DNA of 64,000 nucleotides, from positions 9,411,102 to 9,475,101 of the forward strand of contig NC_061063.1 of the NCBI RefSeq assembly GCF_021917145.1. The letters run 5' to 3'. The position numbers were made by a program, and so were the translations under genes. Positions 14,176 to 54,120 of the stretch are shown one piece after another. Positions within the stretch are counted from its first letter, which is position 1. Each line of letters opens with the position of its first letter. The stretch comes from Hypomesus transpacificus (lineage: Eukaryota; Chordata; Actinopteri; Osmeriformes; Osmeridae). The notes beneath the pieces are model-generated. The model ran no database searches. It saw nothing but the letters and a program-made list of their open reading frames with translations, and was not told the origin of the DNA.

Positions 14176-14616
14176 TTTCGTGTTGGATGCAAACGTGGAA
14201 TTGTCCGGTAGGGTGCAAAAGCTATTACTTAAAGTTCCGTACGAGCTATAACAAATTCCAAGCTTGATAGTGTGTGCGTTGCACTGCAATTTGAAATGTT
14301 TACGATAACAAATGTTTATCCTGCTGTAAGTATAAGTAGGTATGTTACATTCAGAAATAAAACTCATACATATGTCTATGATCTAAAGAAGAAGGGTTTC
14401 ACAGCCAAGTTTCGGAAAAGCTGAAGGGATGTTAAAAAGAGGGAGTGATCATGTTAGTATGTGGAGAACACGGGACAAAAAGGGAAGAAAAATTGAGATA
14501 CCCACAGCAACATATACGTTAAATAAACATACAGATACGATTTGTAATTGTCTTTGTTGTATTCATTTATTCAAACTATTCTACAGCACACTGATCTTAC
14601 ATCACAGTGAGATCTT

Positions 14617-17600
14617 TCATCCTACAATCTGAGCTTGCGTCGACAAACCACAATACAGGGAGAATCCAGACACAACGTTGGGCAACGACCCCACTTTAGG
14701 GGGTAGGGGAAGGGTGATGATCAGCTTCAGGTAGCAGCGACGCCTGGAATAAATACAACAAACATGTTTGCATGTGTTTGTGCTTCTGTAAATGAGAGTT
14801 GTTCATGCACTGTATGCAGCACGTGTGTGTATATAACTGTACAGCTTGTACAGTTGTGAATTGTGCATTCACTATGAGTTCAAGTTTCAGGTTTATTGCC
14901 ATTTATCACAGGGACCAGCCCTATGGATTCCTGTGGTCCTGCTTTAGACCTCTGTTTTCTATCAGGCCATCTAAACCTATAACTACCAAAACAATCTAAA
15001 CTCACAATAAATAATGTGTGTGTGGACATGTTAGCATCGGGGCATATATGCATCTCCATCAAATTGTGCATGTCTTGTGTCTCAATCAAAACAAACCTGT
15101 ATACAGGATCATTAAAGGATGATGAAAGGTAGGTGTAAAACTGACAGGCCGGGTCCTCATTGCAGACCTGCCTGCAAGACTCCTTGTCATCCAGTAACAC
15201 AAACTTCTTGTCGTTGCCCCAGAAATCTACCCCATCATAGTCAGCAAACACCCAGTCTATAAGAAGGTAGATCAGAAAAGATTGTACATTAAAGACACCA
15301 CAGTTTTTACTTTTACATCTTAATAGCTCATGCTTGGTTTCGGTGCTTTGTTACTCTCAAGAAATTGTGCATTGTGATGAAACAGGAATGGAGTAATACT
15401 AGGTTCTTACCACTAGAGGGAGCACAGTGCCTCGTTGGCATCCCAGTAAACATGTTCTTCTCAGCCACAAGCTTCATCATATCTCTATTGTTTTTCAGGT
15501 AGCAGGTATGTAGTATTCTGGTACAAAAACGAAACATGAATATGAACACAAAAAAAGTCCTGAATTGTCATTAAACCAGACACAAGTTAGCGATTATGTT
15601 AGCCTATATGAAATTACAATGCGTTAGACACAACAACGCAATATAACTTGCATTAAATAATGTCTTATTTCAGAATACAGCACAAAGTACCAATCCTGTG
15701 TACATCTGTGAAGACCGACTTTTAAGTTGCGCCCTCTGATGGTGAAAATAATACGTCCCAAAAGGCCCCTATCTTCCCTGACGTACTTGTGGAAGCTAAA
15801 GTAGCTACAAAGTGGGTGGGACGTGCACAGATGCTGGCAGTGTTCCGCAGACACAGCAGGAACTTGCTCCAGGTCCTCCCCTTTGACATCAGTGTCGTTG
15901 AAAATTGTGGTTTTACAGGCTGCAGAATCGGGAGACCAGGAAAAGACAAACACTGTCAAAATGGTTAAGTGCCAAAAACTCACTGTTCTTCACAATCAAT
16001 AAAATGATTTTCTGTCATTATACCCTAGCCTCTCACATGTCACAAACACATTGGTTGTATCAGTGGACTCCTTTGTGTCATCAGATAATCACATCAGTGA
16101 CAACAATGGTCAGCCACATAGACTCAGTATCAAAGTACAAAGTTGTGATTACATTGATCTCTACACACTATTATTTTATTCAGACATTAGAAATTTTACT
16201 TATGACAGTGTATTAAACAGTTATCACAGAACCAAAAAAGTTAGGAATGCTACAGAAATTAAAAGAGTATGTGGGGTTAGTATTAGCCTGACGTTGTCAT
16301 ACTCATAATTCTAGTCAGAATATGAGTCTGAAAACTCTCCGTTGGGCTGTGACTACGGGCGTGTTTCAACCGAACTCGTAAAACAAATGCCTCTTCGCTC
16401 AATTGGATAGATCTACAACCAATCAGAGCAATGTAATATGTTGTTTGTTGAAAACAAATTCAACCCAAGCGCTCTTTCGTGACGTTGTTGATTACGTTAC
16501 TGTTGATCATCTGTCCATCATCGTATAAAGCCCGCCCTGGCAATTTCATTGGTCCGTCCCGATTCTGTTTTTTTGTAGTTGTCCCCAATACGAGACCCTC
16601 CAGACCCAACTTCCCGAACCAATTTTTTTGTGGGCCTGGAGAAGTTGGGCTGGCAGCCAGGCTAGGTTAGTATGTGTGTGTGACAGTGCACGTTTGTGTG
16701 GGTGTGTGTGTGTGTACCTTCCTTGCTTCCCAATAGATGTGGATCAAGATTCTTAGAGAATCCCGAGAAAGCCTCTGGGAGGTTTCTGACCTTCAGGGGT
16801 CTGGGGACTGTCCAGAGGAACTTCAGATGGCACTTGTACCTACAAAAGGTTGAGAAAAGCTTATTTGAAAGACAAATTAAGAGAAACACATATTCAGGAG
16901 AAGCAAAAAAACTAACAGATTTGCTCCATCTCCAGCAGTCTTAGATGTAAGACAACACATTAAATGTGCTGTCGTACCTGTACTGCTCAGATGTGTAGTT
17001 TTCAGTGAGGAAGGTGAAAGCCTGGCAGCCTGGCTGGTTGGTACAGGCTCTCTGACACTCCTCATGGCTGTCAGTGAACAGGGACAGGAAATCACCTCCC
17101 AGGAAGTCCACGTTTGGATACACCTTGTGGAGAAGCCTTTGACACGTTTCTGAAAGGATGACACACAAGGCATACATGTTTACATACAAGCAAAGGTACA
17201 AACGCACAAACACACACACATACAAGTCTGGAGGTATGTGGTATAGGAATGTGGTCTTACGTATTGAGGGGTCACATCCTTTGAGAGCAAAGCCAGAGAT
17301 TGCTTTAGAAAGGATAACCTTTTTACTTGGCTGTCCAGATAATGAATCTTTCAGGTAGCATTTGAAATTCCTGTGTGTGTGAGAGAGAGATCTAATGATA
17401 TAATTTACTGTACATCATTATATTACAGATATAATGTTATATATTTTGATTATTGTAATTTTTTTGTGATGATACATTTTCAGAATATTTTTGATGATTT
17501 ACGATGATATGTGATAATTCTCATTCAACCTGAAAAAAAGGTTCCAAACGTGAGTTGTCAACAGGTGGGAACATACCCAGTGGTGAAGGTAAAGAACCTG

Positions 17601-18221
17601 CAGGTTGGGTGCTGGGTGCACGCGAGCTGACAATGCTCGGCATCCGGAGACAACATATTGATGATGTCATCTCCCTGGAAGTCTGTTTTCTCCAAAAGCT
17701 CCGTCTTACACTCTGGAACAGATAAAAACATACTCACAATACATATTATGTGAATTATACGAATAGTTCCAAACTCAAAGTCTGATTGGTTGACAAAGCC
17801 TTTGATTTCTAATGCTGAACAGTTCTAGCATATCACTACACACCCACGTGGATTATCGTCAGACTCAGTGCTTGTCTGATGTACCGAGCTCATGAATAAA
17901 CTGTATCAAACGTTTGAATTGCGTATCTGTCTACTTCCGTGACTGTCTTAAATTCGAATAGCTCCATTACAGCGTTTTCCACGAGAATTAGCTGGTAACA
18001 TTATCTGTCTCTACTGGGATTACAGTATTTCAATTATATTGTCATGCTGCAAGGATATTATATCATTGTAATATATGCATTTTCATGCATTTCTATGAAG
18101 TTATATTTTTAAATGTTTCTATCACATTAAGAACAAACAGACTAACACACAGCAAAATATTCTTACCTTGACTGAGAGCGTGCCCACAGAGAGCGAGCAG
18201 ACCTACCACGTAGAACTGCAT
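14617..18221 (-). CDS. Apple-domain (kalliklectin-like) secreted protein, paralogue A
   Basis: Nine exons: 18167-18221, 17577-17712, 17261-17370, 16978-17149, 16718-16839, 15787-15919, 15411-15517, 15097-15256 and 14617-14743. They sum to 1122 bases and 373 residues. Exon 1 encodes a signal peptide (MQFYVVGLLALCGHALSQ). Four apple/PAN domains follow, each split over two exons as in plasma kallikrein and coagulation factor XI: about residues 19-100, 101-198, 199-278 and 279-360. Domain 1 (ECKTELLEKTDFQGDD, CTQHPTCRFFTF) is close to factor XI apple 1. No serine-protease domain follows, so the protein resembles the fish skin-mucus lectins called kalliklectins (inference). Apple 2 lacks its last cysteine and apple 4 its first. 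A MITE sits in intron 5, and a minus-strand AATAAA lies near 14567. Confidence 0.85.
14880..15010. repeat. Interspersed repeat fragment shared by both paralogues
   Basis: A stretch beginning GTTCAAGTTTCAGGTTTATT in intron 8 of paralogue A recurs at 19140-19270 in paralogue B. It was therefore present before the gene duplication. Its class is not recognised. Confidence 0.4.
16283..16664. mobile_element. MITE with perfect 8-bp target duplication
   Basis: The element is flanked by GGTTAGTA on both sides (16275-16282 and 16665-16672). It begins TTAGCCTG and ends CCAGGCTA, a short inverted terminal repeat. The matching intron of paralogue B has an uninterrupted GGGTTAGTATGTG. The 8-base duplication suggests hAT-type transposition. 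A diverged copy in reverse orientation lies near 55370-55745. Confidence 0.85.
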
Positions 18222-18901
18222 GATATCACAACGTATTCTGCTGTTTCTGACCAGAATAAGTGATGCACAGTGGAGCTGTGTATATATAATCTTCGTTGAC
18301 AGGGTGGTAATCTCTGTGTGGTTGTGATTGGTTGTCAGTTGTTTCTCCACTGGTTTATGTAAACAAGTCGATTCTTTGTTAAAATAAATAAAAAAATAAC
18401 TGAGTGCCTTTATTTAAAGTCCATACAAATAGTCAAGTACCGCCTACTTTTATATAACCAGCCCAATAAAAGGGCTTCCTGGGCCAGGTTCTCTTCTATA
18501 ACTCTCCTGATATTAATAAACAACTAATTATCTCACTAGACGTGCTCCATTTTCAAGGGTTGTAGGGCCCCTACGGTATCTGGTCATTTGAGAAAGTCCG
18601 CCATCTTGTGGCAGACGAGGGAACTGCCAAGCTTCCTGTTCTGAACAAGCTCACTGCTGAAGTTACTTACAGTGGCGCTTTAGGAGACAGGGAGGGATCA
18701 GGGTAGAATGTGATCACAGAGGTAGATGAGGTTGAAGAAAGGGGAAGAGTTTGAGATACCCACACCAACATAAACGGTAAATAGAAACGCAGATACCATT
18801 AGCGTTCTGTTAATTGTATTAGTTTATTCAAACTATTCTACAGCCCACTGATCTCTCATCACAGTGAGATCTTTCATCTCACAGAGCATGCATGGAACTC
18901 A
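18222..18901. other. Intergenic between the two apple-domain genes
   Basis: It contains the promoter side of paralogue A (nearly identical to the DNA upstream of 25050) and the 3' flank of paralogue B with TTTATT near 18822, a minus-strand polyadenylation signal. No other feature is seen. Confidence 0.5.
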
Positions 18902-21900
18902 TCACAACCCACAATTCAGGGAGAATCCAGACACAACGTTGGGCAACGACCCCACTTTAGGGGGTAGGGGAAGGGTGATGATCCGCTTCAGGTAGCAGCG
19001 ACGCCTGGAACAAATATAACAAACATGTTTGCATGTGTTTGTGATTCTGAATATGTAAATTGTTCATGCATTGTATGCAGCACGTGTGTGTATGTAACTG
19101 TACAGCTTGTACAGTTGTGAATTGTGCATTCGATATGAGTTCAAGTTTCAGGTTTATTGTCATTTATCACAGGGACCAGCCCCATGGATTCCTTTGGTCC
19201 TGCTCCTCTGGACAGTTTCCTATCAGGCCATCTAAACCGATAACTACCAAAACAATCTAAACCCACAATAAATAATGTGTGTGTGGACATGTTAGCATCG
19301 GGGCATATATTTACATTTATGCATTTAGCAGACGCTTTTATCCAAAGCGACTTCCAAGAGAGAGCTTTACAAAAGAGCATAGGTCACTGATCATAACAAC
19401 GAGGTAGTCCCAAACATTGCAGGCAGCCAAAACATGAAGCATACATTGTGAAAAAACTAAACAAGTGCCAAAAGGGAAGACCCATAAGAGCATGCAGTTA
19501 TACAAGTTTACAAGTTGATGCAGATGCAATATATGCGTCTGTATCAAATTGTGCATGTCTTGTGTCTCAATCAAAACAAACCTGTATACAGGATCATTAA
19601 AGGATGATGAAAGGTAGGTGTAAAACTGACAGGCCGGGTCCTCATTGCAGACCTGCCTGCAAGACTCCTTGTCATCCAGTAACACAAACTTCTTGTCGTT
19701 GCCCCAGAAATCTACCCCATCATAGTCAGCAAACACCCAGTCTATAAGAAGGTAGATCAGAAAAGATTGTACATTAAAGACACCACAGTTTTTACTTTTA
19801 CATCTTAATAGCTCATGCTTGGTTTCGGTGCTTTGTTACTCTCAAGAAATTGTGCATTGTGATGAAACAGGAATGGAGTAATACTAGGTTCTTACCACTA
19901 GAAGGAGCACAGTGCCTCGTTGGCATCCCAGTAAACATGTTCTTCTCAGCCACAAGCTTCATCATATCTCTATTGTTTTTCAGGTAGCAGGTATGTAGTA
20001 TTCTGGTACAAAAACGAAACATGAATATGAACACAAAAAAAGTCCTGAATTGTCATTGAATCAGACACAAGTTAGCGATTATGTTAGCCTATATGAAATT
20101 ACAATGCGTTAGACACAACAACGCAATATAACTTGCATTAAATAATGTCTTATTTCAGAATACAGCACAAAGTACCAATCCTGTGTACATCTGTGAAGAC
20201 CGACTTTTAAGTTGCGCCCTCTGATGGTGAAAATAATACGTCCCAAAAGGCCCCTATCTTCCCTGACGTACTTGTGGAAGCTAAAGTAGCTACAAAGTGG
20301 GTGGGACGTGCACAGATGCTGGCAGTGTTCCGCAGACACAGCAGGAACTTGCTCCAGGTCCTCCCCTTTGACATCAGTGTCGTTGAAAATGGTGGATTTA
20401 CAGGCTGCAGAATCGGGAGACCAGGAAAAGACAGATCATGTCAAAATGGTTACGTGCCCAAAAATCACTGTTCTTCACAATCAATCAAATGATTTTCTGT
20501 CATTGTCCCCTAGCCTCTTTGTCACAAACACATTGGTTGTATCAGTGGACTCCTTTGTGTCATCAGATAATCACATCAGTGACAACAATGGTCAGCCACA
20601 TAGAGTCAGTATCAAAGTACAAAGTTGTGATTACATTGATCTCTACACACTGTATTATTTTATATAGACATTTTACTTATGACATAGAGTGTATTAAACA
20701 GTTATCATAGAACCAGAAAAGTTAGGAATGCCACAGAAAATAAAAGAGTAGTGTGTGGGTTAGTATGTGTGTGTGACAGTGCATGTTTGAGTGTGTGTGT
20801 GTGTGTGTACCTTCTTTGCTTGCCAATAGAAGTGGGTCAAGATTCTTAGAGAATCCAGAGGAAGCCTCTGGGAGGTTTCTGACCTTAGGGGGTCTGGGGA
20901 CTGTCCAGAGGAACTTCAGATGGCACTTGTACCTACAAAAGGTTGAGAAAAGCTTATTTCAAAGACAAATTAAGAGAAACACATTTTCAGGAAAGGCAAA
21001 TAACAAACAGATTCACTCCATCTCCAGCAGTCTTTACATTTAGTCATTTAGCAGACGCTCTTATCCAGAGCAACTTACAGTAAGTACAGGGACATTCTCC
21101 CTGAGGCAAGTAGGGTGAAGTGCCTTGCCCAAGGACACAACGTCATTTGGCACGGCCGGGAATCGAACTGGCAACCTTCTGATTACTAACCCACTTCCCT
21201 AACCGCTCAGCCACCTGACTCCTCAGTCTGAGTCTTAGATGTAAGACCACACATTAAATGTGCTGTCGTACCTGTACTGCTCAGGTGTGAAGTTTTCAGT
21301 GAGGAAGGTGAAAGCCTGGCAGCCTGGCTGGTTGGTACAGGCTCTCTGACACTCCTCATGGCTGTCAGTGAACAGGGACAGGAAATCACCTCCCAGGAAG
21401 TCCACGTTTGGATACACCTTGTGGAGAAGCCTTTGACACGTTTCTGAAAGGATGACACACAAGGCATACATGTTTACATACAAGCAAAGGTACAAACACA
21501 CAAACACACACACATACAAGTCTGGAGGTATGTGGTATACGAATGTGGTCTTACGTATTGAGGGATCACATCCTTTGAGAGCAAAGCCAGAGATTGCATT
21601 AGATTGGATATCTCTTTTACTTGGCTGTCCAGATGATGAGTCCTTCAGGAAGCAATTTAAATTCCTGTGTGTGTGTGAGAGAGATATCTAATGTGATAAT
21701 TTACTGTACATAAGGATGTTAGAGATCTAGAGATGTGATATTATATTTTAATTATTGTCATTTTTTGTGATGATACATTTTCAGAATATTTTTTATGATT
21801 TACGATAATATGTGGCAATTCTCATTTAACCCGAAAAAAGAGGTTTCAAACGTGAGTTGTCAACAGGTGGGAACATACCCAGTGTTGAAGGTAAAGAACC

Positions 21901-22227
21901 GGCAGGTTGGGTGCTGGGTGCACGCGAGCTGACAATGCTCGGCATCCGGAGACTTAACTCGGATGTCATCTCCCTGGAAGTCTGTTTTCTCCAAAAGCTC
22001 AGGCTGACACTCTGAAGAGATATACACATACTCACAATACATATTATATGAATTTACGAGTAGTTCCAAACTCAATGTCTGATTGGTTGACAAAGCCTTT
22101 GATTACTAATGCCTCTTAACAGTTGTAGTATTTCAGTACACAAGGCCTGGACGATATATCGAATATTATCGATAATATTGCAATAATTTTGACGTCAATG
22201 TAAAATTTGAAAATATTGTGAATATCG

Positions 22228-22259
<32 letters not shown>

Positions 22260-22306
22260 GTCCTTGTGTTGCATGTGTTTTCAGATTACTGTCTGGCTCC
22301 TCTGTG

Positions 22307-22345
<39 letters not shown>

Positions 22346-25050
22346 ACACACACAGAGACACACACAGAGACACACAGAGACACAAACTGAAAATTGCACA
22401 GGCACTCTCTTTTGCTCTCTTATTGTCCTGTCACATAAGGACCTCTGCATGAATTGTTCCATATGAGGCCCATTTTGTCAAGTTGCAAGTACCATGTTAT
22501 GGCAACTACGTAAATTTGCACTACACATTGTGTACTCAAAGTTATTTTTTTTAATGTATATATCAAATTAAGAAGAAACAGACTAACAAACAGCAAAATA
22601 TTCTGACCTTGACTAAGAGGGTGCCCACAGAGAGCGAGCAGACTTAACACCACGTAGATCTGCTGATACCTTATGAACCATCCCGACCCCTCAGGTCATC
22701 TGGGACTGGTCTACTTTGTGTTCCAAGAGTCAGAACTACACAAGAAGAAGCAGCGTTCAGTTTTTCTGCACCAGCACCACATATCTGGAACAAGGTCCCT
22801 GAAAGCTGCAGGTCTGCTGAGACCCTCACCTCCTTTAAATTCAGATTGAAGACTTCACTGTTTGCTGTTGCCTTTAATTGAACCAGATTCAAGGATATCA
22901 ATTTCTGCATCTCACTCCTGCATTTTATTTTTAAACTGCACTACAACTTTTATTTTATTTGACATGTTTCTGAAAGGATGACACAAACGCACAAACATAC
23001 AAGTCTGGAGGTATGTGGTATAGGAATGTGGTCTTACGTATTGAGGGGTCACATCCTTTGAGAGCAAAGCCAGAGATTGCAATAGATTCGATAACTCTTT
23101 TACTTGGCTGTCCAGATGATGAGTCCTTCAGGAAGCAATTTGAATTCCTGTGTGTGTGAGAGAGAGAGATGTAATGTGATAATTTACTGTACAAAATTAT
23201 ATTAGAAATCTAATGTGATATAATATTTTGATTAATGTCATTTTTTGTGATGATACATTTTCAGAATATTTCTTATGATTTACGATGATATGTGATCGTT
23301 CTCATTTAACCAGAAAAAAAGAGGTTTCAAACGTGAGTTGTCAACAGGTGGGAACATACCCAGTGTTGAAGGTAAAGAACCGGCAGGTTGGGTGCTGGGT
23401 GCACGCGAGCTGACAATGCTCGGCATCCGGAGACTTAACTTGGATGTCATCTCCCTGGAAGTCTGTTTTCTCCAAAAGCTCAGGCTGACACTCTGAAGAG
23501 ATATACACATACTCACAATACATATTATGTGAATTTACGAGTAGTTCCAAACTCAATGTCTGATTGGTTGAAAAAAGCCTTTGATTACTAATGCCTCTTA
23601 ACAGTTGTAGTATTTCACTACACTAGGGCTGGCCGATAAATCGAATATTATCGATAATATCGCAATCATTTTTACGACAATGTAAAATTTGAAAATATCG
23701 TGAAAATCGAATACTAAAAAAAAGTATACTTTTTTTTTTTGCTGGTCGTTGTGTTTCTTGTGTTTTAAGATCACCGCCTGGCTTCTCTGTGTTCACATAC
23801 ACTCACAGACACACACAAACTGAAAATTGCATTCGCACAGTGTGGTATCATGAGAGGCTAAACCACGATGCGGGGTGTAGGGCATTGCATAAAAACCGGA
23901 CAGAGCAGGCAAAACTGGGTTCAAACAGGTTTATTTACCAAAAAACGGTCAGGAAGCAAAACTAAAAGTTCCATCAAACACAAAACGTTGCTCCCCGCCT
24001 TGGATCCTACCAAGTATCAAAAACTCAGAAGCATTTGCAGCTGTCGGCGTGGTGCATTCTGGGAGGTGTAGTTCTTGCGTCAGCCATCTTGTGGCATGGT
24101 AGCCATTCGCAGAGGGAAACATACCACCCCTCTACAACACGTCCTCTCATGATGCCACAACAGGCACTCTCTTTTGCTGTCATTGTCCTGTCACATAAGG
24201 ACCTCTGCATGAATTGTTCCATGTGAGGTCCATTTTGTTGGTCCAAGTTGCAAGTACCATGTTATGGCAACTACTTAAATTTTCACTTCACATTTTGTAC
24301 TTTGTAACAATAGCTGGTCTATCTAAATCGTTTTTGTTGTTTTCTAATGGGGGCAAAAGAAAATCATGTTTTTTAATTATTTAAATGCAAAGGCAAACAT
24401 ATCGAATATCATAAATGTTGACAATATCGAGATATCTTTTTTATATATATATCGCCCAGCCCTACTACACACCCATGTGGATTATCGTCAGACTCAGTGC
24501 TTGTCGGATGAACCGAGCTCATGAATAAACTATCAAACAGTCAGATGGCTGAGCGGTGAGGGAGTCGGGCTCGTAATCATAAGGTTGCGGATCGTTTTCC
24601 CGCCGTGCTAAATGACGTTGTGTCCTTGGGCAAGGCACTTCACCCTACTTGTCTCGGGGGGAATGTCCCTGTACTTACTGTATGTCGCTCTGGATAAGAG
24701 CGACTGCTAAATGACTAAAATATAAATGCAAATGTTTTAATTGCATATCTGTCTACTTCCTTGATCGTCTTCAATTCGAATATCTTCCTTACAGTGGTTT
24801 ATACGAGAATTTCCATGTAACATTATCTGTCTCTACTGGGATTACAGTATTTAAATTATATTGTCATGCTGCAAGAATAATATTTACATTATTGTAATAT
24901 ATGGATTTTCATACATTTCTATCGAGTTAAAATGTTTTTAAATGTATATATCACATTAAGAATAAACAGACTAACAAACAGCTTAATATTCTTACCTTGA
25001 CTGAGAGCGTGCCCACAGAGAGCGAGCAGACCTACCACGTAGAACTGCAT
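18902..25050 (-). CDS. Apple-domain (kalliklectin-like) secreted protein, paralogue B with duplicated first apple domain
   Basis: Eleven exons: 24996-25050 (signal peptide), 23360-23492, 23038-23147, 21879-22011, 21555-21664, 21272-21443, 20811-20932, 20272-20404, 19896-20002, 19582-19741 and 18902-19004. They sum to 1338 bases and 445 residues, giving five apple domains. The first module (exons 2 and 3, 243 bases) is present twice and is phase-symmetric, so splicing both copies keeps the frame. Exons 6-8 and the introns between them are almost identical to paralogue A. An old signal-peptide exon between the two modules has lost its ATG. The stop is 23 codons earlier than in A. An alternative is that the upstream module belongs to a truncated third gene; cDNA would decide. 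No protease domain. Confidence 0.72.
19311..19529 (-). repeat. SINE-like element, family 2, in paralogue B intron 8
   Basis: Contains the tail GCATTTAGCAGACGCTTTTA (reverse of the SINE tail) and a body ending near AAGTTTACAAGTTGATGCAG. Paralogue A is uninterrupted at the matching site (GGGCATATATGCATC), and an ATATAT motif flanks the insertion on both sides. Related copies on the plus strand lie at 57448-57594 and 60428-60574. Confidence 0.8.
21032..21225 (-). repeat. tRNA-derived SINE, family 1, in paralogue B
   Basis: Read on the minus strand it starts GAGTCAGGTGGCTGAGCGG (A-box-like) and has AGTTCGATTCC (B-box-like), a conserved body and the tail AGAGCGTCTGCTAAATGACT. CAGTCT flanks both ends, while paralogue A has a single CAGTCT at this place. 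Confidence 0.85.
22150..22300. mobile_element. Remnant of the hAT-like element, older copy
   Basis: GGACGATATATCGAATATTATC, a poly-T run (22228-22254) and GCTGGTCCTTGTG match the left part of the element at 23625-24463. The copy lies in the matching intron of the duplicated module, so it was probably copied along with it. It lacks the nested insert. Confidence 0.65.
22309..22382. repeat. CA microsatellite
   Basis: A pure CA run followed by repeated CAGAGACACA units on the plus strand, within an intron of paralogue B. Confidence 0.9.
22608..22673 (-). pseudogene. Degenerate signal-peptide exon of the apple-domain gene
   Basis: Minus-strand sequence still reads YVVLSLLALCGHPLSQ, clearly the signal-peptide exon of the family. 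Loss of one base turned the ATG context (ATCATGCAG) into ATCAGCAG, and the donor GTAAG is changed to GTCAG. It can no longer start translation and is probably skipped. Confidence 0.75.
22725..22885 (+). mobile_element. LINE reverse-transcriptase C-terminal fragment
   Basis: Plus-strand reading gives FSFSAPAPHIWNKVPESCRS, then TLTSFKFRLKTSLFAVAFN and a stop. This is the typical end of a non-LTR retrotransposon ORF2 (pattern recognised, not searched). It lies between the degenerate signal exon and the upstream apple module, near a duplication breakpoint. Confidence 0.65.
23625..24463. mobile_element. Non-autonomous hAT-like element with nested insertion
   Basis: Left end AGGGCTGGCCGATAAATCG, right end TATATCGCCCAGCCCT, which are inverted repeats of each other. 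Near-identical 8-base duplications flank it (ACTACACT at 23617-23624, ACTACACA at 24464-24471). No transposase is encoded. A second element is inserted at 23841-24159. Confidence 0.75.
23841..24159. mobile_element. Nested element with 17-base inverted ends
   Basis: Ends TGTGGTATCATGAGAGG and CCTCTCATGATGCCACA are inverted repeats with one mismatch. ACAG occurs on both sides. The older copy near 22395 reads straight through (TTGCACAGGCACTCTC), giving an empty site. The TG...CA ends leave a short solo LTR as an alternative. Confidence 0.75.
24541..24734 (+). repeat. tRNA-derived SINE, family 1
   Basis: Starts TCAGATGGCTGAGCGGTGAG and ends GAGCGACTGCTAAATGACT before an A-rich tail. It is located in intron 1 of paralogue B and is absent from the matching place in paralogue A. 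Confidence 0.85.
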
Positions 25051-25212
25051 GATATCACAACGTATTCTGCTGTTTCTGACTTTAATAAGTGATGCACAGT
25101 GGAGCTATGTATATATAATCTTCGTTGACAGGGTGGTAATCTCTGTGTGGTTGTGATTGGTTGTCAGTTATTTCCCCACTGTTTTAAGTAAACAAGTCGA
25201 TTTTGTATTTGT

Positions 25213-30750: not shown

Positions 30751-31125
30751 CAATTATGTCTTAATTTGCAGTCAAGCGATCTACAACTGCTCTACAATAT
30801 CTACAACAGAGCTATACCCATCCCCAAATGCATAAGTGGCACACAACATGATAGATGAATGCACATGTTTTATTGATGCAGTGAAACAACAGAAAATGGA
30901 AAAGGTTTTCTAATTGGTGTTGTGGGATTCCACAGGACTGGACATGTCTGGGGACTTTACTGAATACACTCTCAAAAAGGGCTGTGTCTTTGGCCTAGTT
31001 GAAATTGGAAAAGCATCAGACGATGCTGCCATCTGTTTGATGTCAGGCTGGCACACTGGGAAGAAGAGTAAAACTGTATTAGCACAAAAATCGCCATACT
31101 ACACATTTTTATAAAGGAGTCAGAT

Positions 31126-31308
31126 GGCTGAGCGGTAAGGGAGTCGGACTAGTAATCCAAAGGTTGCCGGATCGATTCCCCACCGTGCCAAATGCCGTTG
31201 TGTCCTTGGGCAAGGCACTTCACCCTACTTGCCTCGGGGGGAATGTCCCTGTATTTACTGTAAGTCGCTCTGGATAAGGGCGTCTGCTAAATGACTAAAT
31301 GTAAATGT
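31126..31308 (+). repeat. tRNA-derived SINE, family 1 (well preserved)
   Basis: Starts GAGTCAGATGGCTGAGCGG, has CCGGATCGATTCC as the B-box-like part and ends GGGCGTCTGCTAAATGACTA followed by AATGTAAATG. It is the cleanest copy in the window and lies 3' of the large gene. Confidence 0.9.
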
Positions 31309-31434
31309 ATAAAACAATGAATGTATTTTAGAGTTAAACTTAAACAATAATTAGTTTCTCAATATATAAATTACATTAATCTACAACTTGATTCTACATT
31401 GTTCATCTTGTGATGTCAGAGGCTGTAAACAAAA

Positions 31435-34400
31435 CTACATACTGTCACTACATGATGACGCAGGAACTGTCCTATCCATCGACTCTGGGTCCTGCTGAAG
31501 ACTGGGTGCAATTTTGTTTCTCTGAAGAATGAAACCCAAACACAAGACTCCATTTAACAACAAAAGGGGTAAATAATACATCACAATCAGAAACAAATAT
31601 ATAGCGCATCATAAAACAACTAACTATTACACAATGCTGATCCATTACCATTTTTCTCTTCTGGGAGAGTTTTGAGAAATAGGAGACTTTCTCTACTGGC
31701 TTCAGCTGCTGGTTTGGAACCTGCTTTTTCCCACCATCCTTGCAGCTCAGAAGTGCATCAGTCAGCAGCCCGACCAACGTTTTCCCAAACGTGGGATCCT
31801 CGCTTGTCATCGCTCTCTGGAGAGCTTCACGGGTGCCGAACTCCCGTAGCAGGGCTTTCCTCACGCTTGAGTCGATCTCCGTTAAGTTCATGTCTTGAAG
31901 GCAGGATTCCATTTTCCCGAGCTGTGTCCCATCCCTACACCTTTTCAAGATCTGCTCGGTCAAATCGGCGGCCATTTTGTTGAGAATGACCGCGGATTTA
32001 ACAGATCGGCTGATCTTGGTGATGATTCTGACCACCAGGATATTTACTGTCGAACATAGGCGTTCGTGGTTAGATGGAGGCATTGGTGGGAGTAAATATT
32101 TTGGAGCCATGCTAGCGCTGTGACAGGGGTCATCAGACACCTTACTTGAGGAAGACAGATCGGTTTTACCACTTTTGATAGGATCCTTGCACAGAGTCTC
32201 AGTGACGTGTTGAGCCACCACTCTGGTGAACATAGAAACAATATCTTTGGATGCCTTAGAGCAAGCGTTCGGGCATGTTTGAGAACCTATTCCATCAGCT
32301 TTCTCTGAAGGAGAGAGGATGGATGATGGAGCAAGGAACATGGTGATCAGTTGCTTGAACATATCCTTAAATGAGTTATCTGTGAACGTGTAGACAAGCT
32401 CCAAAAACGTTTCCCTGGACAGCTCCATGTTGGTGTCACCTGTCGTGGCTTCACGTGGCAGAAACATGTCCAATTTAGAATCGGACGGCTCTGGTGAGGT
32501 CTTGGGCATGTTGGCAAGCAAAAACTTACTGACCCCATCCACAACACTGTCTGTGAAAGGCCGAAGAATCCCACAGGAGAGCAGGACTTTAAGGTTTCCC
32601 TCAACCTTAGCTGGATCTTCCCCAATGAGCAGCATCCTTTTCATGAGGCAGATTATCGAAGCCACGGCCGTGCTTAGCTCCACAGACACCATCCCAATCC
32701 TGGGGCTCCTGTCACTGGTACCTCTGGCAGTCTCTAACACAGCTTCCTCGACCTTCGGGTTCCTCATTGAGGGACCTGTTGGGGTTTGGATGGATGTCGC
32801 TGAGGACATGGCGGATGAGGACGAGCTCTGGATTTCTTTGGTTGAGCTTTGGGCCTTGTTTGCCCTCTCGCGCGAGCTTGTACTGCTGGGAGCTTGGCCT
32901 GGCTTCAGCCTGAGAGTCCTTTCTGAAGAGAGGGAGCTGGAGGACAAGGTGTAGTACAAGGATCTCACAGATGAGGGGGTGGTTGAGGTATTGCCAATCA
33001 TACCGTGGCTTCCCTCATCCACTGTGCCAACACTTTCATAGCTGCTGCCGTAGCTGGTTGTCAGGATATCAGAGGACGAATGGACGTGGGTGGTCGGAGT
33101 GGAATTGTTTCCTGTCGTTGATGATGACGAAACAAATGAGGAAGTGCTGGTGACCGTCAGACAACCAACTCTTCCATTTCCACCCTGCTCAGTTTCCATC
33201 GAGTCAGGTTGATTTCTCCTTAAGCCGCGTCTGGTGTGTGGGCGGACAACATTCTCATTTGTAAGTAGAGATTTTGCCTCCTGTTGAACTTCCACTGCTG
33301 GTCTGAGTCGTCGGGAGATTAACTTGTCGATTAACGTGAGCCTAACATTTTGATAGAAGGATGAAGCCGTAGATTGTATTTTATCCTTTGAGTCTTCGCT
33401 TTCAGATGGGAGGTCTGATTTTGCCAAACACTGTTGGTCTTCCCCGCCACTGTGATGGGCAGGATCTGGTAAAATCTCAGAATACAAAGAGGGATTAGAG
33501 ACAGACACTTGCTCCAGAAAGGATGGAATTTCATCTATATATACGCCACCAACTGATGGCAGATGGCATGATGCTTTAGCTGGAGTAGACTTGATCAATT
33601 CTTCCATTAAATCATTAGATACATTTGAGTGGACATGTGTAAAAATGTCTTCTTTTAAGCTGCTGTTGTCGTGTTGGGCCTTTTCAGACACAATACTGGA
33701 CGCAGATGAAAAATAATCTGTGACGCTTTGGAAAATATGACTGATTACAGGTTCCAAGCAATGCTGGAAGTCATCGGGTCCCAGTTCGGAATCGGTTGTT
33801 GAAGAACTCTTGGATGTCTTTTCCAGACAGGACCCAAAGATGTCAAAGTCAGACCATTCAGAACGGTCAAAAAGGTTTTCTATGTCTTTGGCAACTGTTT
33901 CTACCATCCCAGAAATCACTGCAAAGTGTGAGGTAGACCTGCTAGCCACCATGGGGACAACCTCCTGACCTTGCTGGTTGAGTAACAGATCTTGTTGGCT
34001 ATGGATGGATGATGGAATGAGGACATCACTCACAGCAAGTGTGGCTTTGATCAAGACATCCCGAGAGAGTTTTGAGGAAGGTTTTCTTGCTAGACTGAGG
34101 GAGGACTCTATGATGTCATCGCCGTCATTGGATGACACTTGAACAGTGGCTTCAACAGGAGCACATAGCACATTTTTATGTGTCACATTCTTTTGCTGGT
34201 CGATACTCGTCTGAAGTCCCTTGAAGTGAAACTTCATTTTGTCTGCCAACACATGAAGGAAGTTGTTGAAACCAACACTGGCTGCTCTCTGGCTTTTATT
34301 TTTATGTATATCCTGGGTTGTGGAGTCCACAAAACTATCCACAATGGTGAGGGCAACCAGTTCAGCTGCAGGAACTACGTCTGACTCTTTCTCCTTAACC

Positions 34401-37400
34401 AACTCCACCAACTCTACTGCAGACGGAGTCCACAAGGACAATCCTTGGACCTGTGCAGGTACAAAGACGTTGTGCTCGGAGGACATTTGAAATGTTTCAG
34501 TTGATGTAGGTTTGCATTCTTTTATAACGTCCTCTGATGTGGTAGGTGGCAGATTTTCAAATCCTACTTTCTTTTCTTGGTCGACAGTCTTCTGAACTCC
34601 CTTGGAGAGATGCTTAATTTTGTCTGCCAACACATGAAGGAAGGTGTTAAAACGGCCAATGGTCGCTTTCTGTCTTTTGTCCTCATCTTCACGGATTTCT
34701 TTGCTGGTGGAATCCATTAAACTCTCCAATATGGCCACGGCAACCAGTTCAGCTGCTGAAATTGAGTCTGATTCTTTCTCCACGTCAGACTCCACCAATA
34801 CGTCTGCAGAAGGAGTTAACGAAGGCAGGCCCTGGATTACTGCACCTACATCCTCAGAGAGTATGTGTAAAGTTGTTTCAGATGAAGCTGGTGCTTCGGA
34901 AGACATGAAGAGAGCTTTTAGCTTATCTTTAACACTTTGGAATACATTACTGACTGCAGGGTCAAGTCTATCTCGCGAGTCATCAGCTCCAAGTTGAGAC
35001 TCAGCTGTGGAAGAATGCTTGGGTGTCTCTCCCAGACAGGGCTCAAAGAGGTCAAAGCCAGACTGCTCAAGGCTGTCAAAAAGGTTTTCTAGATTTTTGG
35101 CAACTGTCTCCACCATCTCAGAAATCTCTGGATGTGGTGAAGCAGACTTGCTGGCTATATCTGATTGACCTTGCTCAGCCAATAACAGATCTTGTTGGAT
35201 AGATGGTAGAATACGTACATCACTCACAGCAAGTGTGGCCTTGATGAAGACATCCTGAGACAGTTTAGGAGAAGGTTGTCTTGCTAGAACAAGGGAGGAC
35301 TTAGACTTTTCACCACCTTTATTAGATGACTGTTGAATGGTGGTGTCAACAAAAGTATGTGACAGATGTTCACGTGCAACTTTCTTTTCTTGGTCAAGAT
35401 CAACTGTTTTTTTAACTCCCTCGGTTAAATGCTTAATTTTGTCTGCCATCACATGAAGGAAGGTGTTGAAATGAAGCTTGGTTGCTCTCTGGCTTTCATC
35501 CTTATTTTCATGGATTTCCTTGCTGGTGGAATCCACTAAACTCTCCACAATGGTCAAGGCAACCAGACTAGCTACCGGAAGTAAGTCTGACTCATTCTCC
35601 TTTTCCAATTCCACCACTTCTTCTGCAGCAGGGTATGTTGAAGACAAGCTCTGGACCTCTGAATCTACATCTTTAGAGGATATGCGTGACATTGTTTCAA
35701 TCAAAGCTGGCTCTTCGGATGGCCTGAAGAAAGCTTTTAGCTTGTCTTGTAGACTTTGGAATATATTACTGACTGCAGGGTCAAGGCTATCTCGCGAGTC
35801 ATCAGCTCCCAGTTGAGACTCAGCTGTGGAAGAACGCTTGGGTGTCTCTCCCAGACAGGGCTCAAAGAGGTCAAAGCCAGACTGCTCAGGACTGTAAGAA
35901 AGGTTTTCTAGATGTTTGGCAGCTGTCTCCACCATCTCAGAAACCTCTGGATGTTGTGAAGCAGACTTACTGGCTATATCCGCTTGACTTTGCTCAGTCA
36001 ATAACAGATCTTGTTGGTAATGGATGGATGATGGAATGAGGACATCACTCACAGCAAGTGTGGCCTTGAAGAAGACATCCTGAGACAGTTTAGGAGAAGG
36101 TTGTCTTGCTAGAACGAGGGAGGACACAGCCTTTTCACCACCTTTATTAGATGACTGTTGAATGGTGGTGTCAACAAAAGTATGTGACAGATTTTCATGT
36201 GAAACTTTCTTTTCTTGGTCAAGATCAACAGTTTTTTTAACTCCCTCGGTTAAATGCTTAATTTTTTCTGCCATCACATGAAGGAAGGTGTTGAAATGAA
36301 GCTTGGTTGCTCTCTGGCTTTCATCCTTATTTTCATGGATTTCCTTGCTTGTTGAATACACTAGACTCTCCACGATAGTAAGGGCAACCAGACTAGCTAC
36401 TGGAAGTAGGTCTGACTCATTCTCCTTGTCCAATTCCACCACTTCTTCTGCAGCAGGGGATGTAGACGACAAGCTCTGGACCTCAGAGTCTACATCCTTA
36501 GAGGATATGCGTGATGTTGTTTCAGTCAAAGCTGGCTCTTCGGAAGACCTGAAGAAAGCTTTTAGCTTGTCTTGTAGACTTTGGAATATATTACTGACTG
36601 CAGGGTCAAGGCTATCTCGTGAGTCATCAGCTCCCAGTTGAGACTCAGCTGTGGAAGAACGCTTGGGTGTCTCTCCCAGACAGGGCTCAAAGAGGTCAAA
36701 GCCAGACTGCTCAAGGCTGTCAAAAAGGTTTTCTAGATTTTTGGCAACTGTCTCCACCATCTCAGAAACCTCTGGATGTTGTGAAGCAGACTTACTGATG
36801 ATATCTGCTTGACTTTGCTCAGTCAATAACAAATCTTGTTGGCAAGGGATGGGTGATGGAATGAGGACATCACTCACAGCAAGTGTGGCCTTGATCAAGA
36901 CATCCTGAGAGAGTTTAGGAGAAGGTTGTCTTGCTGGACTGAAGGAGGTTTCAGTTTTTTCATCACCATCATTGGATGACACTTGAACAGACTTCTCTGC
37001 TCCCTTGAGGCAATGCTTCATTTTTTCCGCCATCACGTGAAGGAAAGTGTTGAAATGGGCATTGCTTTCTCCATGGCTTTTGTTTTTATGTGTTTCCATG
37101 CTGGTGAAATCCATTAAACTCTCCACAATAGTTACAGCAACCAGTCCAGCTGCAGAAACTAAGGCCTCCTCCTCCTTGTCCAGCTCCACCAATTCTTCTG
37201 GCAGGCTCTGGATCTCTGCCGCCACGTCCTCTGACGACATGTGCAACATTTCAGATGAGGCAGGGCGGACTTCACTAGAGCTTCTGTGGACGTACAGGCT
37301 ATATCGGTCAGAGTCTGAGCCAGCACCAGACACCGGTGAGTCAGAATTCGTGCTGAGTTTTTTACGGAGAGCCAATGCTTCAAGTCTCGTTTCTGACATG

Positions 37401-40059
37401 TCTTCATCAACTGCAAAGGCTGGAGATTTTGATTTTTGTTTCTCAGGTGTGATTGTGGCTCGTGCTTTGGTGGCACTGAAAATGTTCAGCTTGTCTTCCA
37501 CGTTTTTGAAGATGTTACTGATTGCAGATTCAAGCCTCTCTTGGAAGTTATCTTGTGGTAGTTGAGACTCTGCTGTGAAAGAATTTCTGGGTGTCTGAGG
37601 CAGAGAGTTGTCAAATATTCCAAAGCCAGACTCAAGACTATCACAAGGGCTTTCTAGGTCTTTGGGAACTGTCTCCACCATCCCAGAGGATTCAGCTTTC
37701 TCATCACCTTCATTGGATGACTCTTCAAAGGTGGCATCAACAGTAGTATGTGACTGATTTCTCTGTACTATATTTTCTTGATTCACAGTCTTCTGATCTC
37801 TCTTGGAGAAATGCTTCATTTTCTCTGACATCTGATGAAAGAAGGTGTTGGAATGGGCACTGCTTTCTCTTTGGCTTACTTCCTTGTTTGCCTTGTGGGA
37901 GGAATCCACAAAACTCTCCAAGATTTTGAGAGCAACTTTTACAATTGAAGGGACTACGTCTGAATCTGTCTCATCCAACACCGTCCTTGTTTCAGTTGCA
38001 AAGTTTGTTAAGGACAATCCCAGACTGTCCGCAGAGGCTTGCCATCGTGTGTCAAATAGGTTTATCGAGGCTGTTGCAAGTAACTGCCCAGGTCCGTCTG
38101 TGCTAGTGGATGGTAATTCCAGCCAAGTGGGTCCTTGACAAAAAATCTGTTGCTTGATGTACTTGGAAAGGGCAGCATTGATTTTCTGGTGGATGAGGTT
38201 AACAATCTTTCTGACCTGCTCAACTGAGACACCCTTGAAAAGAGGCTCCTCTGAGTGCATGTTGATCATGCTTTCTCGGACGTCTTCAAAAATCCTGTCC
38301 TCTGATATGTCAAAGAGATCCTCAAGAGGCTTTGCCTCAGCTTGAATGCACAATTCTTTCCTCTGAGAACTATGAGAAAGCTCAGACCAAATCTTGGTGA
38401 CTTCATGAGAAGAAACCGATCTACAAAGAAACACAAACAACACGTTTTACGGTACAATTCATCATTGCACTTCATAGAACCAATCAAATACAAGATGATC
38501 TTATGAGTCTAATGCATGGTCAAACAAGGGAGTAATGACGTCTGCTATACCTCAAAAGAGGTAACACTTACGTTTTGGATGGGTAAGGTGTGGGTAAGCG
38601 TAAACTGATCTTTGTTTCAGCACTCCGAGTCGACACCGATGGAGTGGTGAATTCAAAATGGATGCTTCTAGACTGGGTGCAGGTGCTCTGGATGTCCCTG
38701 TCCGAGCGGCTCTTTTCATCCTTCAGAGGACTGTCCGAGAGCATCTGATCCAGGAGAAAAGAACTCTGTGTTAACTTCTATTCACAGCACAAGCAAACTT
38801 GTTGGTTGATATCACCAATAGACTATCCTGTATGTGTTAAGTTTTGGGTTGTTCAATGCAACACTTGTCAAGTAACTTTGGATACATGACCTCTGTGCTT
38901 CAACGTAAACACTTATCTAAACTCTTTGTATTCTTGATTCTCTGTGAAGTCACACTTATTATACAGGATGTAATCATTGACATTTTGTACTAACTGTGTA
39001 TTTGTTAGATGACACCTTCCAGACCATTACTGTTTAACTACCATGATATACTTGTAAAGTAGCTACAGTAAGTATAGTATGGTTGGCCAAAGTGCACTCT
39101 CTCTCACCATTTCTTTGTTTGGTCCAACAGGGGCCAGATTGGGGACCAGTTCAACAGCTGGTTTAGGAGTCTTCTGTATCCTGCACACAACATACGATCA
39201 AAGGTACATTTACAACACATTTCCGGTTCATGTATTTGTCTTTCTGTGCATAATTTCAGTGTCATTTCTATGCAGCTTGTTTTGATATAGTGTTGTGTGT
39301 AGTTTGTGTAGAACAGTAATTTGACTGTTTTCCTGTGATGCTCTTTTAGGGGAACTGTCTTTCTAGAAGAATCAGAATCAAAATGGGATTTATTTGCCAT
39401 GAAAGTTTGCACTGACAAGGAATTTGCTTTAGCAGGAAGGTGCATGCAATAAACATATAGGAACCTTAAATATGTGGTCTATCTATACTAAGTGTACATA
39501 AACTAGCAATACTATTAGAATTAAAATAAAATGTATAATAAAATAAAATATAAGTTGCCTTATCTTGTTTGTCTCAACATATATGTATTTGTGTTTGTCT
39601 GTCATTATGTCTGAACTCATACTTGGCTTCATGGGGGTCCACAGGATCTGACTCCTGACTTTTTTCCATCTCATTTATGGCTTTACATGCATATCTCGAT
39701 GAGACCAAAATGAATAACATGAAAGAGAATGTATATATTTTGACGTGAACCCAAATTGAATTCATCAGCTTTTTAATCATCTTTTTTTCTCCTGTTTTTT
39801 CCTAACGTCAACGTTTCAAAACCAAATCGTTTTGAAAAACAAAGCCCAGCTAGTTTCAGAATGTTCATTTTAATTTGGGATTATGGTATACTGACATAAT
39901 GTATTATTTTACCAGTCAATATAATTGTAAATCAGAATAAATAACGAAGATAATGAGTGGTCTTACCTTGTCTGGGATGACTGAACGTTGTTCACCCGCA
40001 GACTGGCGCACACACGATGCGTTCTCAATAGTTGGGTAGAATGTGACACGGCGCGTCAT
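31435..40059 (-). CDS. Unrecognised giant repeat-containing protein (2396 residues)
   Basis: Not recognised. Five exons: 39967-40059, 39108-39173, 38572-38744, 31649-38420 and 31435-31521, with phases closing to 7191 bases. The 6772-base fourth exon, open throughout, is the main evidence that this is a gene. The protein starts MTRRVTFYPTIENASCVRQS. About residues 250-1560 form diverged repeats, the best copies about 275 residues long. Each has a helix like LVALTIVESLVDSTS, then FNTFLHVMAEKIKHL, then (usually) LSQDVFIKATLAVSDVLIPS and FDLFEPCLGETPKR. Residues 1700-2000 are Ser/Thr-rich. The C-terminal part from about 2015 (ELSTAVASIICLMKRMLL) looks folded and non-repetitive. No signal peptide or membrane span is seen. 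Minus-strand AATAAA near 30868. The small gene just upstream shares a helical motif. A role as a scaffold or anchoring protein is only a guess. Confidence 0.8.
39365..39470. repeat. Interspersed repeat fragment
   Basis: GAATCAGAATCAAAATGGGA followed by TTTATTTGCCATGAAAGT and ACAAGGAATTTGCTTTAGCA is a familiar fish repeat end (recalled pattern). It lies in intron 1 of the large gene. Confidence 0.4.
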
Positions 40060-40578
40060 AATGCTAAACAGACCCAGACACAAATCATAACAACTTGTAT
40101 AGCGACCACCGGCACCAAGACGACAAAAATCGTTACATTTAGGCCACAAAAACGTCCTCTTTACTTACTTTAACAAGCTATACTAAACCTAAAATTGTAT
40201 GTGGGCCGATTTGTTCAACCATGAGGACGGAAATCGGAAACACTGAATGGGAATTATCTATCATTTTTTTTCACTGGGAAAGCTAGACAAATCTAATCTA
40301 ACTAGCTACACTGTAATGCTCACCGGAAGAATTGATTTGGTTCTGTATTCTAATACTAGTAGCAGTTCAATGCACATCAATGCCCACCTGAATGAGGTGC
40401 CAGCTAGTGCTGGTGCGCTAGTAAGATTTAGGCCTATCTGTAACTTCATCCAAACAGTATCCTAAAATCATGTTTAATGAAATAAACAAAACAAAAACCA
40501 GCTTTTTTCGTAAAGTAAACAAGAATACCGATATATTACGTTACAGTAGGCTATAAGTTTATTCTCAAACATAAGTTT

Positions 40579-52465: not shown

Positions 52466-54120
52466 CCCCGGAACTCCTCCTGGCATGCAGAATCCTCCCC
52501 TCCATGATTTAGGATAGCGCAATCCAAAGCAAGAGTCCCTCATCTTTGAGGAAGTACTGTAACCTGGCGACCATAACCTAGCGACAGAAGATCCCTGTCC
52601 TGCCCACTCCATATCTTCCTGGATACCCTCAACATAATACTTCCCTCCTCTTACCCCGTATTGGTTGACCTCAGATTTGTGTTACTTCCAACCTTGTTGA
52701 TTTATACTAGTTTTGGTGGACTGTTTTTGTATCGTGTGGGTCCTGTAGGGAATGCAGAGTCTACACTGTGAATGAGCTGCTCACAGTTGTCACTAAATTG
52801 GCTTTTTTTGGAAATCGTTGTTAGATGCACTTCACCATGTCTGTGGTTTGACCAGGTGAGGAATATATAAATACCCAGCATATTTCACTTGGTGCTGGAC
52901 AAGACATTGGAATTTCCAACTAAAAGTAGTGAACATTTAAATAAAAAGAACATTTGTGCAACCATTCTTTCTTGGGATATCCAGTACATCTTTGATAATG
53001 GTTCAGCTTTTTAACTTCCTACGAAGTTGGACCTGGTACAATTGGTTAATGCTTGTTGGACATCCTTTTTGTAGAATAGAGTGGGCTATGACATCTATAC
53101 AAAGCCAGGAATTTCCCTCCAGACTGATTGAGGTTTAATGAAACCGTGAATAAGGTGTGTGATCCGGAGGAACACTGCCTTTGTCTCTCTGGTTATGGAT
53201 ACCCTGGCTCAGAAAAAGGAATGTGGATTTCCAGGATTTATTTTACATTTACCATCCTCTGGTCGAGACTTTCCAAATGGCTTCTGAGCAACGTATTATA
53301 TTTGGATCTAAATTAGTTCTAGTCTGCTGTTTTGTAAACAAGTGGACATAATCAATGTTGTGTGTCCTTGTTCTGTCACAGACAGAATCTAATCTTAGTA
53401 GGAAGTCAGTTGGCTTCCAACCAGTGTATAGTTATGTGAAACATGACTTCAAAATGGCACCTGTCCAATCCTTGAAGATGGTTGAAGCCCTATAAAAATA
53501 TTTTTAAGTGTTTCAAGGATAGCTTCCTTAAGTGGATGCAATTAAAGCCAGCAGACAACAAAGTCTTAGGATCATGGTGTCACTGACAGCAGCTTCTTAG
53601 ACATCCTTCATTATCTGGTTTCCAGGAGAACTTAAGCGGAGAAACCTACTCGAGATCTTTCGACATAAAACATTTACTAAGTTGATAAGTGTTTTAGATA
53701 TGTAAGAATTTGCAGTGTTATTAGATTGGCAAAAACAAAATACTATCCAAGTAAACTACTCTTGAGTTTTACCCTACACTGTGTATTTGTTTTGTGGGTG
53801 TGATGTTTAAATTGAAATAAAAATGTAATTTCTGCTCTAATCATTAAAAGCTCTTTTGTAATTACTTTTTTACATTGTTACATTACAATTACAGTGTTAC
53901 ACAGACTAAATCTGTAGAAACGGGTTTATTTCTTGGTTTGACAGTTCCACTGGATTTGAAATGAAAATAAATACAAACCTATATTGTAATAAGAATAGAT
54001 TCACATATGCTGTTTATTATGATGTACAGCAAACCCATTTCTGTGTGGAGAAACACAGCTCTGTTGACATTAAAGTGTTGCTAGTTTCAGCAGTCTTTGA
54101 TGGACAGGCAGTAGACAAGA
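52466..54120. other. 3' UTR interval of convergent prcc and mrpl9
   Basis: The two genes are convergent. The plus-strand AATAAA near 53815 serves prcc (3' UTR about 1.35 kb). The TTTATT near 53923 serves mrpl9 on the minus strand. The two signals are only about 110 bases apart. No other feature. Confidence 0.6.

Follow-up and report, generated by a model that had tools for sequence, protein, structure and literature searches.

FSIP2, AKAP3, AKAP4, AKAP11 and SPHKAP, all encoded by genes with a giant-exon layout, are the closest described systems to the locus considered here. FSIP2 is described as a protein of 6907 residues with three FSIP2 domains that interacts with AKAP4 (PMC9830513); it is reported to be present widely across vertebrates, and the sperm of Actinopterygii is reportedly devoid of a fibrous sheath (PMC11276731). 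We analysed a window of 64,000 nucleotides from the osmerid fish Hypomesus transpacificus (NCBI RefSeq assembly GCF_021917145.1, contig NC_061063.1, positions 9,411,102 to 9,475,101; positions below are those of the window), the minus strand of which carries a gene model dominated by a single exon of 6772 bases. Like FSIP2, which scaffolds the sperm tail together with AKAP4 (PMC9830513, PMC11276731), the predicted product is very large and would be intracellular. As judged from the sequence, the locus is, with high likelihood, a real protein-coding gene outside the family libraries searched, and we tentatively read its product as a fast-evolving, repeat-expanded helical intracellular scaffold, perhaps flagellar, resembling AKAP and FSIP2 in style. 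If conserved and expressed, 2396 residues without a catalogued family in a recognisable gene block would represent an unusually large lineage-specific protein, and its gene a ready knockout target in model fish; otherwise, the protein would be one further uncharacterised repeat protein.

A giant open exon and its gene model

Exon 4 (38420–31649, minus strand) contains no in-frame stops over its 6772 bases, whereas the other five frames contain 187, 93, 118, 55 and 115, which bears out the claim, made in a preceding sequence-only reading, that this exon stays open. The enclosing stop-to-stop frame (31472–38446, minus strand) comprises 2324 codons. A codon log-odds score, for which 1696 codons from neighbouring open frames (some of them with non-coding ends) served as the training set, had its highest mean in the coding frame of exon 4 (0.01 versus −0.07 to −0.22 in the others); this frame ranked first in just 13 of 22 separate 300-base blocks, so that codon usage alone provides modest support.

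We infer that five minus-strand exons are spliced into a single frame of 2396 residues, exactly the length previously given: exon 1 (39967–40059; 31 codons, with the ATG at 40059 and the donor AAG/gtaaga), exon 2 (39108–39173; 22 codons), exon 3 (38572–38744; 173 bases, with a candidate alternative start codon at 38744), exon 4 and exon 5 (31435–31521; 28 codons and the stop). Splice sites were scored with approximate weights and expressed as percentiles among all GT or AG sites of the same strand. The donors of exons 1–4 reach 99.7, 99.1, 98.3 and 94.6, respectively, that of exon 4 being middling, and the acceptors of exons 3, 4 and 5 reach 98.6, 98.8 and 97.8. By contrast, the exon 2 acceptor at 39173, which the frame requires, scores only 68.5, whereas an AG located 7 bases upstream, at 39180, scores 93.9 and its use would bring a stop at the sixth codon after exon 1. 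Thus, of the proposed in-phase joining of exon 4 to exons 1–3 and exon 5, the frame and most sites stand, but the exon 2 acceptor is doubtful, leaving residues 1–52 uncertain. Exon 1, possibly mispaired with exon 2, may be either a short upstream frame or not part of the giant gene, and translation may alternatively begin at Met53 (2344 residues), at Met54 (2343 residues) or in a different first exon. Past the stop, a canonical AATAAA was not found within 500 bases, the first one lying at 30874; AATACA variants are present at 31327 and 31255. The 3′ side of the gene is adjoined by one (31247–31300, plus strand) of three 3′ elements of UnaL2 long interspersed elements in the window, located within a stretch that by eye resembles a short interspersed element; the other two are at 21038–21091 (minus strand) and 24667–24720 (plus strand).

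Repeat units, selection and predicted helices

The predicted protein is acidic (262 kDa, isoelectric point 5.1) and consists of an N-terminal part, a repeat block (residues 258–1700), a Ser/Thr-rich stretch (residues 1851–2000, positions 32753–33202; 40%–48% serine plus threonine per 50 residues) and a non-repetitive C-terminal part rich in possible helices (residues 2001–2368, positions 31649–32752). This computed layout agrees with the architecture proposed earlier, namely, a unique N-terminus, repeats, a Ser/Thr-rich linker and a helical C-terminus, the helices being predicted only. The block holds six related units, two of them partial, in which the short blocks A1, A2, B, C1 and C2 recur: U0 (residues 258–430, 37463–37981), which is devoid of element B; U1 (527–777, 36422–37174); U2 (778–1052, 35597–36421); U3 (1053–1325, 34778–35596); U4 (1326–1454, 34391–34777), with A1 and A2 clear and the remainder missing or unlike; and U5 (1455–1700, 33653–34390), all on the minus strand. 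At the protein level, U1–U3 are 69%–81% alike, and the remaining unit pairs 36%–53%.

The ratio of nonsynonymous to synonymous substitution rates (dN/dS) among units was 0.48–0.85 in all 15 pairs, and the pooled value for the five larger units, U4 being left out, was 0.64 (bootstrap 0.52–0.82), a figure based on ten non-independent pairs. With the interval below 1, the frame looks to be under weak purifying constraint. These values also bear on the idea that the frame is decaying or artefactual and open only through recent copying of one open unit. The close likeness of U1–U3 fits this idea, as part of the openness of exon 4 is consequently not independent; however, the parts of exon 4 free of units (residues 112–257, 431–526 and 1701–2368) are likewise devoid of stops, the dN/dS interval excludes 1, albeit for non-independent pairs, and the splice sites are good, making such an origin highly improbable.

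Strong amphipathic windows are approximately sevenfold commoner than in full shuffles (35 versus 4.9 ± 3.2). An AlphaFold2 model of U3 alone (273 residues), for which the six units served as the alignment, contains helices at 2–30, 34–77, 110–126, 131–140, 156–178 and 206–233 and no strands; five of the six coincide with conserved blocks, which is weak evidence that U3 may be built of separate helices on disordered linkers. Among short motifs, mild excesses were observed for SxxE (90 versus 74, with 3 of 300 shuffles having as many) and RxxS (26 versus 18.7 expected, 6 of 300), whereas LC8, 14-3-3 and PKA-type motif counts were at or below chance; SxIP occurs twice versus 0.7 expected, and overall these counts provided no lead.

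Searches for homologues

Pfam was searched with the whole open reading frame (ORF), five pieces of it and the six units, with matches listed up to an E value of 10 and most weak ones filtered; NCBIfam was searched with the whole ORF, and the PDB sequences with the ORF, a unit profile and the C-terminal part. No credible family was found in these three libraries, within which the statement that the protein is not assignable to a family thus holds. The best Pfam match of the whole ORF, Wtap, covered 22 residues and scored 20.3 bits, far short of the 35 required; ELMO_ARM was the best for one piece (E 0.011) and was matched by one of the six units (E 0.0049). The single NCBIfam match had an E value of 0.085 and 12.8 bits against a cut-off of 150, whereas the best PDB matches were a designed protein for the ORF (E 0.5), Nesprin-2 for the unit profile (E 0.23) and a designed protein for the C-terminal part (E 0.67); all were rejected. 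As a control, the identical Pfam search recognised 5 of 10 fragments of neighbouring genes, namely, GST_N, PWWP, PI-PLC-X and PAN above the cut-off and Ciart slightly under it (26.3 versus 27); four had no match, and one, rapunzel by eye, yielded only a sub-threshold match to CDC37_C. From their translations, we take the neighbours to include RPRD2, MRPS21, HDGF, PRCC and rapunzel, a set that as a whole indicates a ray-finned fish. No relative was found in prokaryote and viral collections, and eight matches in genome contigs to six sequence patterns, one of which derived from intron read-through, were not upheld by tblastn. In the literature, where matching by sequence is not possible, no paper recognisable as concerning this gene was found.

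Loci of this kind are often carried as uncharacterised proteins in fish genome annotation, and it is possible, if short of probable, that the product is simply another protein specific to its lineage, which fish databases may already list as uncharacterised, with a role other than that of a scaffold, for example, in immunity or as a structural component of skin or gill. The fast evolution apparent from the dN/dS of the unit pairs would be consistent with this, as would the reported enrichment of conserved teleost-specific genes of zebrafish for immunity proteins (PMC3599513). Nevertheless, lineage-specific proteins of zebrafish are reported to average 131 and 168 residues (PMC3599513), so that 2396 residues fall far outside, and no immune domain was found in the Pfam searches with the ORF, pieces and units.

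Comparison with FSIP2 and AKAP proteins

Shared giant-exon layout raises the alternative that the protein is a highly diverged member of FSIP2 or of the AKAP3/4/11/SPHKAP group and functions as a multivalent PKA anchor. The wide occurrence of FSIP2 in vertebrates (PMC11276731) is compatible with such an origin. The likeness to AKAP3, AKAP4, AKAP11 and SPHKAP may extend to a trait of that family, amphipathic helices that conform to the degenerate RII-binding consensus. Counted with a working pattern of this consensus, RII-type matches number 21, whereas local shuffles gave 5.2 ± 2.4 and none of 500 had as many, and one match recurs at the same place, in element C2, in all five units carrying that element. 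However, when the hydrophobic pattern was kept in the shuffles, the expectation rose to 13.1 ± 3.2 (6 of 500 having as many), and the single units U3 and U5 displayed no excess over this null, indicating that the signal is mostly plain amphipathicity and repetition. The RVTF motif close to the N-terminus would also be in keeping with an anchor, but it lies inside the doubtful exon 1, and the five RVxF-like matches, among which two pairs overlap, are near chance (2.1 ± 1.5 expected; 23 of 300 shuffles having as many). Unlike FSIP2 and the AKAPs, the giant protein has no FSIP2 domain and no AKAP profile (AKAP_110 and similar) among the Pfam matches listed for the ORF, pieces and units, even though Pfam presumably includes an FSIP2 domain model. 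Membership of either family is not supported, and divergent descent from them appears unlikely.

A tentative scaffold model

Under the scaffold reading that we tentatively favour, a gene of ray-finned fish would have grown by duplication of a unit of ~270 residues within one exon. Each full unit would carry five short conserved blocks (A1, A2, B, C1 and C2), predicted to be mostly amphipathic helices, connected by Ser/Thr/Glu-rich linkers that are probably disordered. The repeated helices of the resulting long and flexible intracellular scaffold might let the same partner or partners dock at many points along it, with linker phosphorylation regulating the docking. By analogy with AKAP and FSIP2 proteins, the likeliest setting would be the cytoskeleton or the sperm flagellum, although partner and tissue are guesses; among lineage-specific genes of zebrafish, the youngest (orphan) ones are reported to be testis-biased and the teleost-wide ones not (PMC3599513). 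A more specific version, in which a multivalent scaffold that arose independently and in fish alone, and has a miniature relative encoded upstream, gathers a kinase and a phosphatase on its repeated helices in a sperm tail devoid of a fibrous sheath, is very doubtful.

Several observations weigh against the scaffold reading. Besides the lack of a homologue in the collections searched, conserved blocks and linkers do not differ in dN/dS (0.65 versus 0.63), and single conserved blocks range from 0.31 to 1.60 with wide intervals; the blocks being no more constrained than the linkers, helices as the sole working parts are not favoured. The U3 model has a mean predicted local distance difference test score (pLDDT) of 47.8 and a predicted template modelling score of 0.42; 159 of its 273 residues, including helix 131–140 and part of helix 34–77, fall below a pLDDT of 50. 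The top five 19-residue hydropathy windows, at residue 2019 and in three A1 helices, reach 1.69–1.93, so that a membrane segment may be present, and no hydrophobic run was seen by eye at the N-terminus. Finally, a promoter X-box with at most one mismatch was not found at the three spacings tried, the only such match in the giant gene being at 34731, within exon 4.

A possible upstream gene and other features of the window

A possible small gene of 164 amino acids lies upstream on the minus strand (41413–41393 joined to 41052–40579), with an AATAAA directly past its stop. A 29-residue stretch of its product resembles residues 174–203 of the giant protein (score 60), a score reached against the whole giant protein by 2 of 300 shuffles and, under three gap settings with the region picked afterwards, by 0, 9 and 7 of 1000. 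It was also the sole match (E 0.22) outside 31000–40100 when the giant protein was compared with the window by tblastn; no convincing Pfam or PDB match was found for the small gene. The resemblance suggests that the two genes may be paralogous, perhaps sharing one helix.

Elsewhere in the window, region 14493–25202 contains duplicated stretches, including PAN-domain gene fragments, among which the copies at 15044–16283 and 19529–20766 form a pair of ~1.25 kb with 96.6% identity. At 54017–55203, both strands carry extended open frames that overlap one another and consist largely of repeats of 18–24 bases, which code for Ala-, Ser- or Glu-rich peptides.
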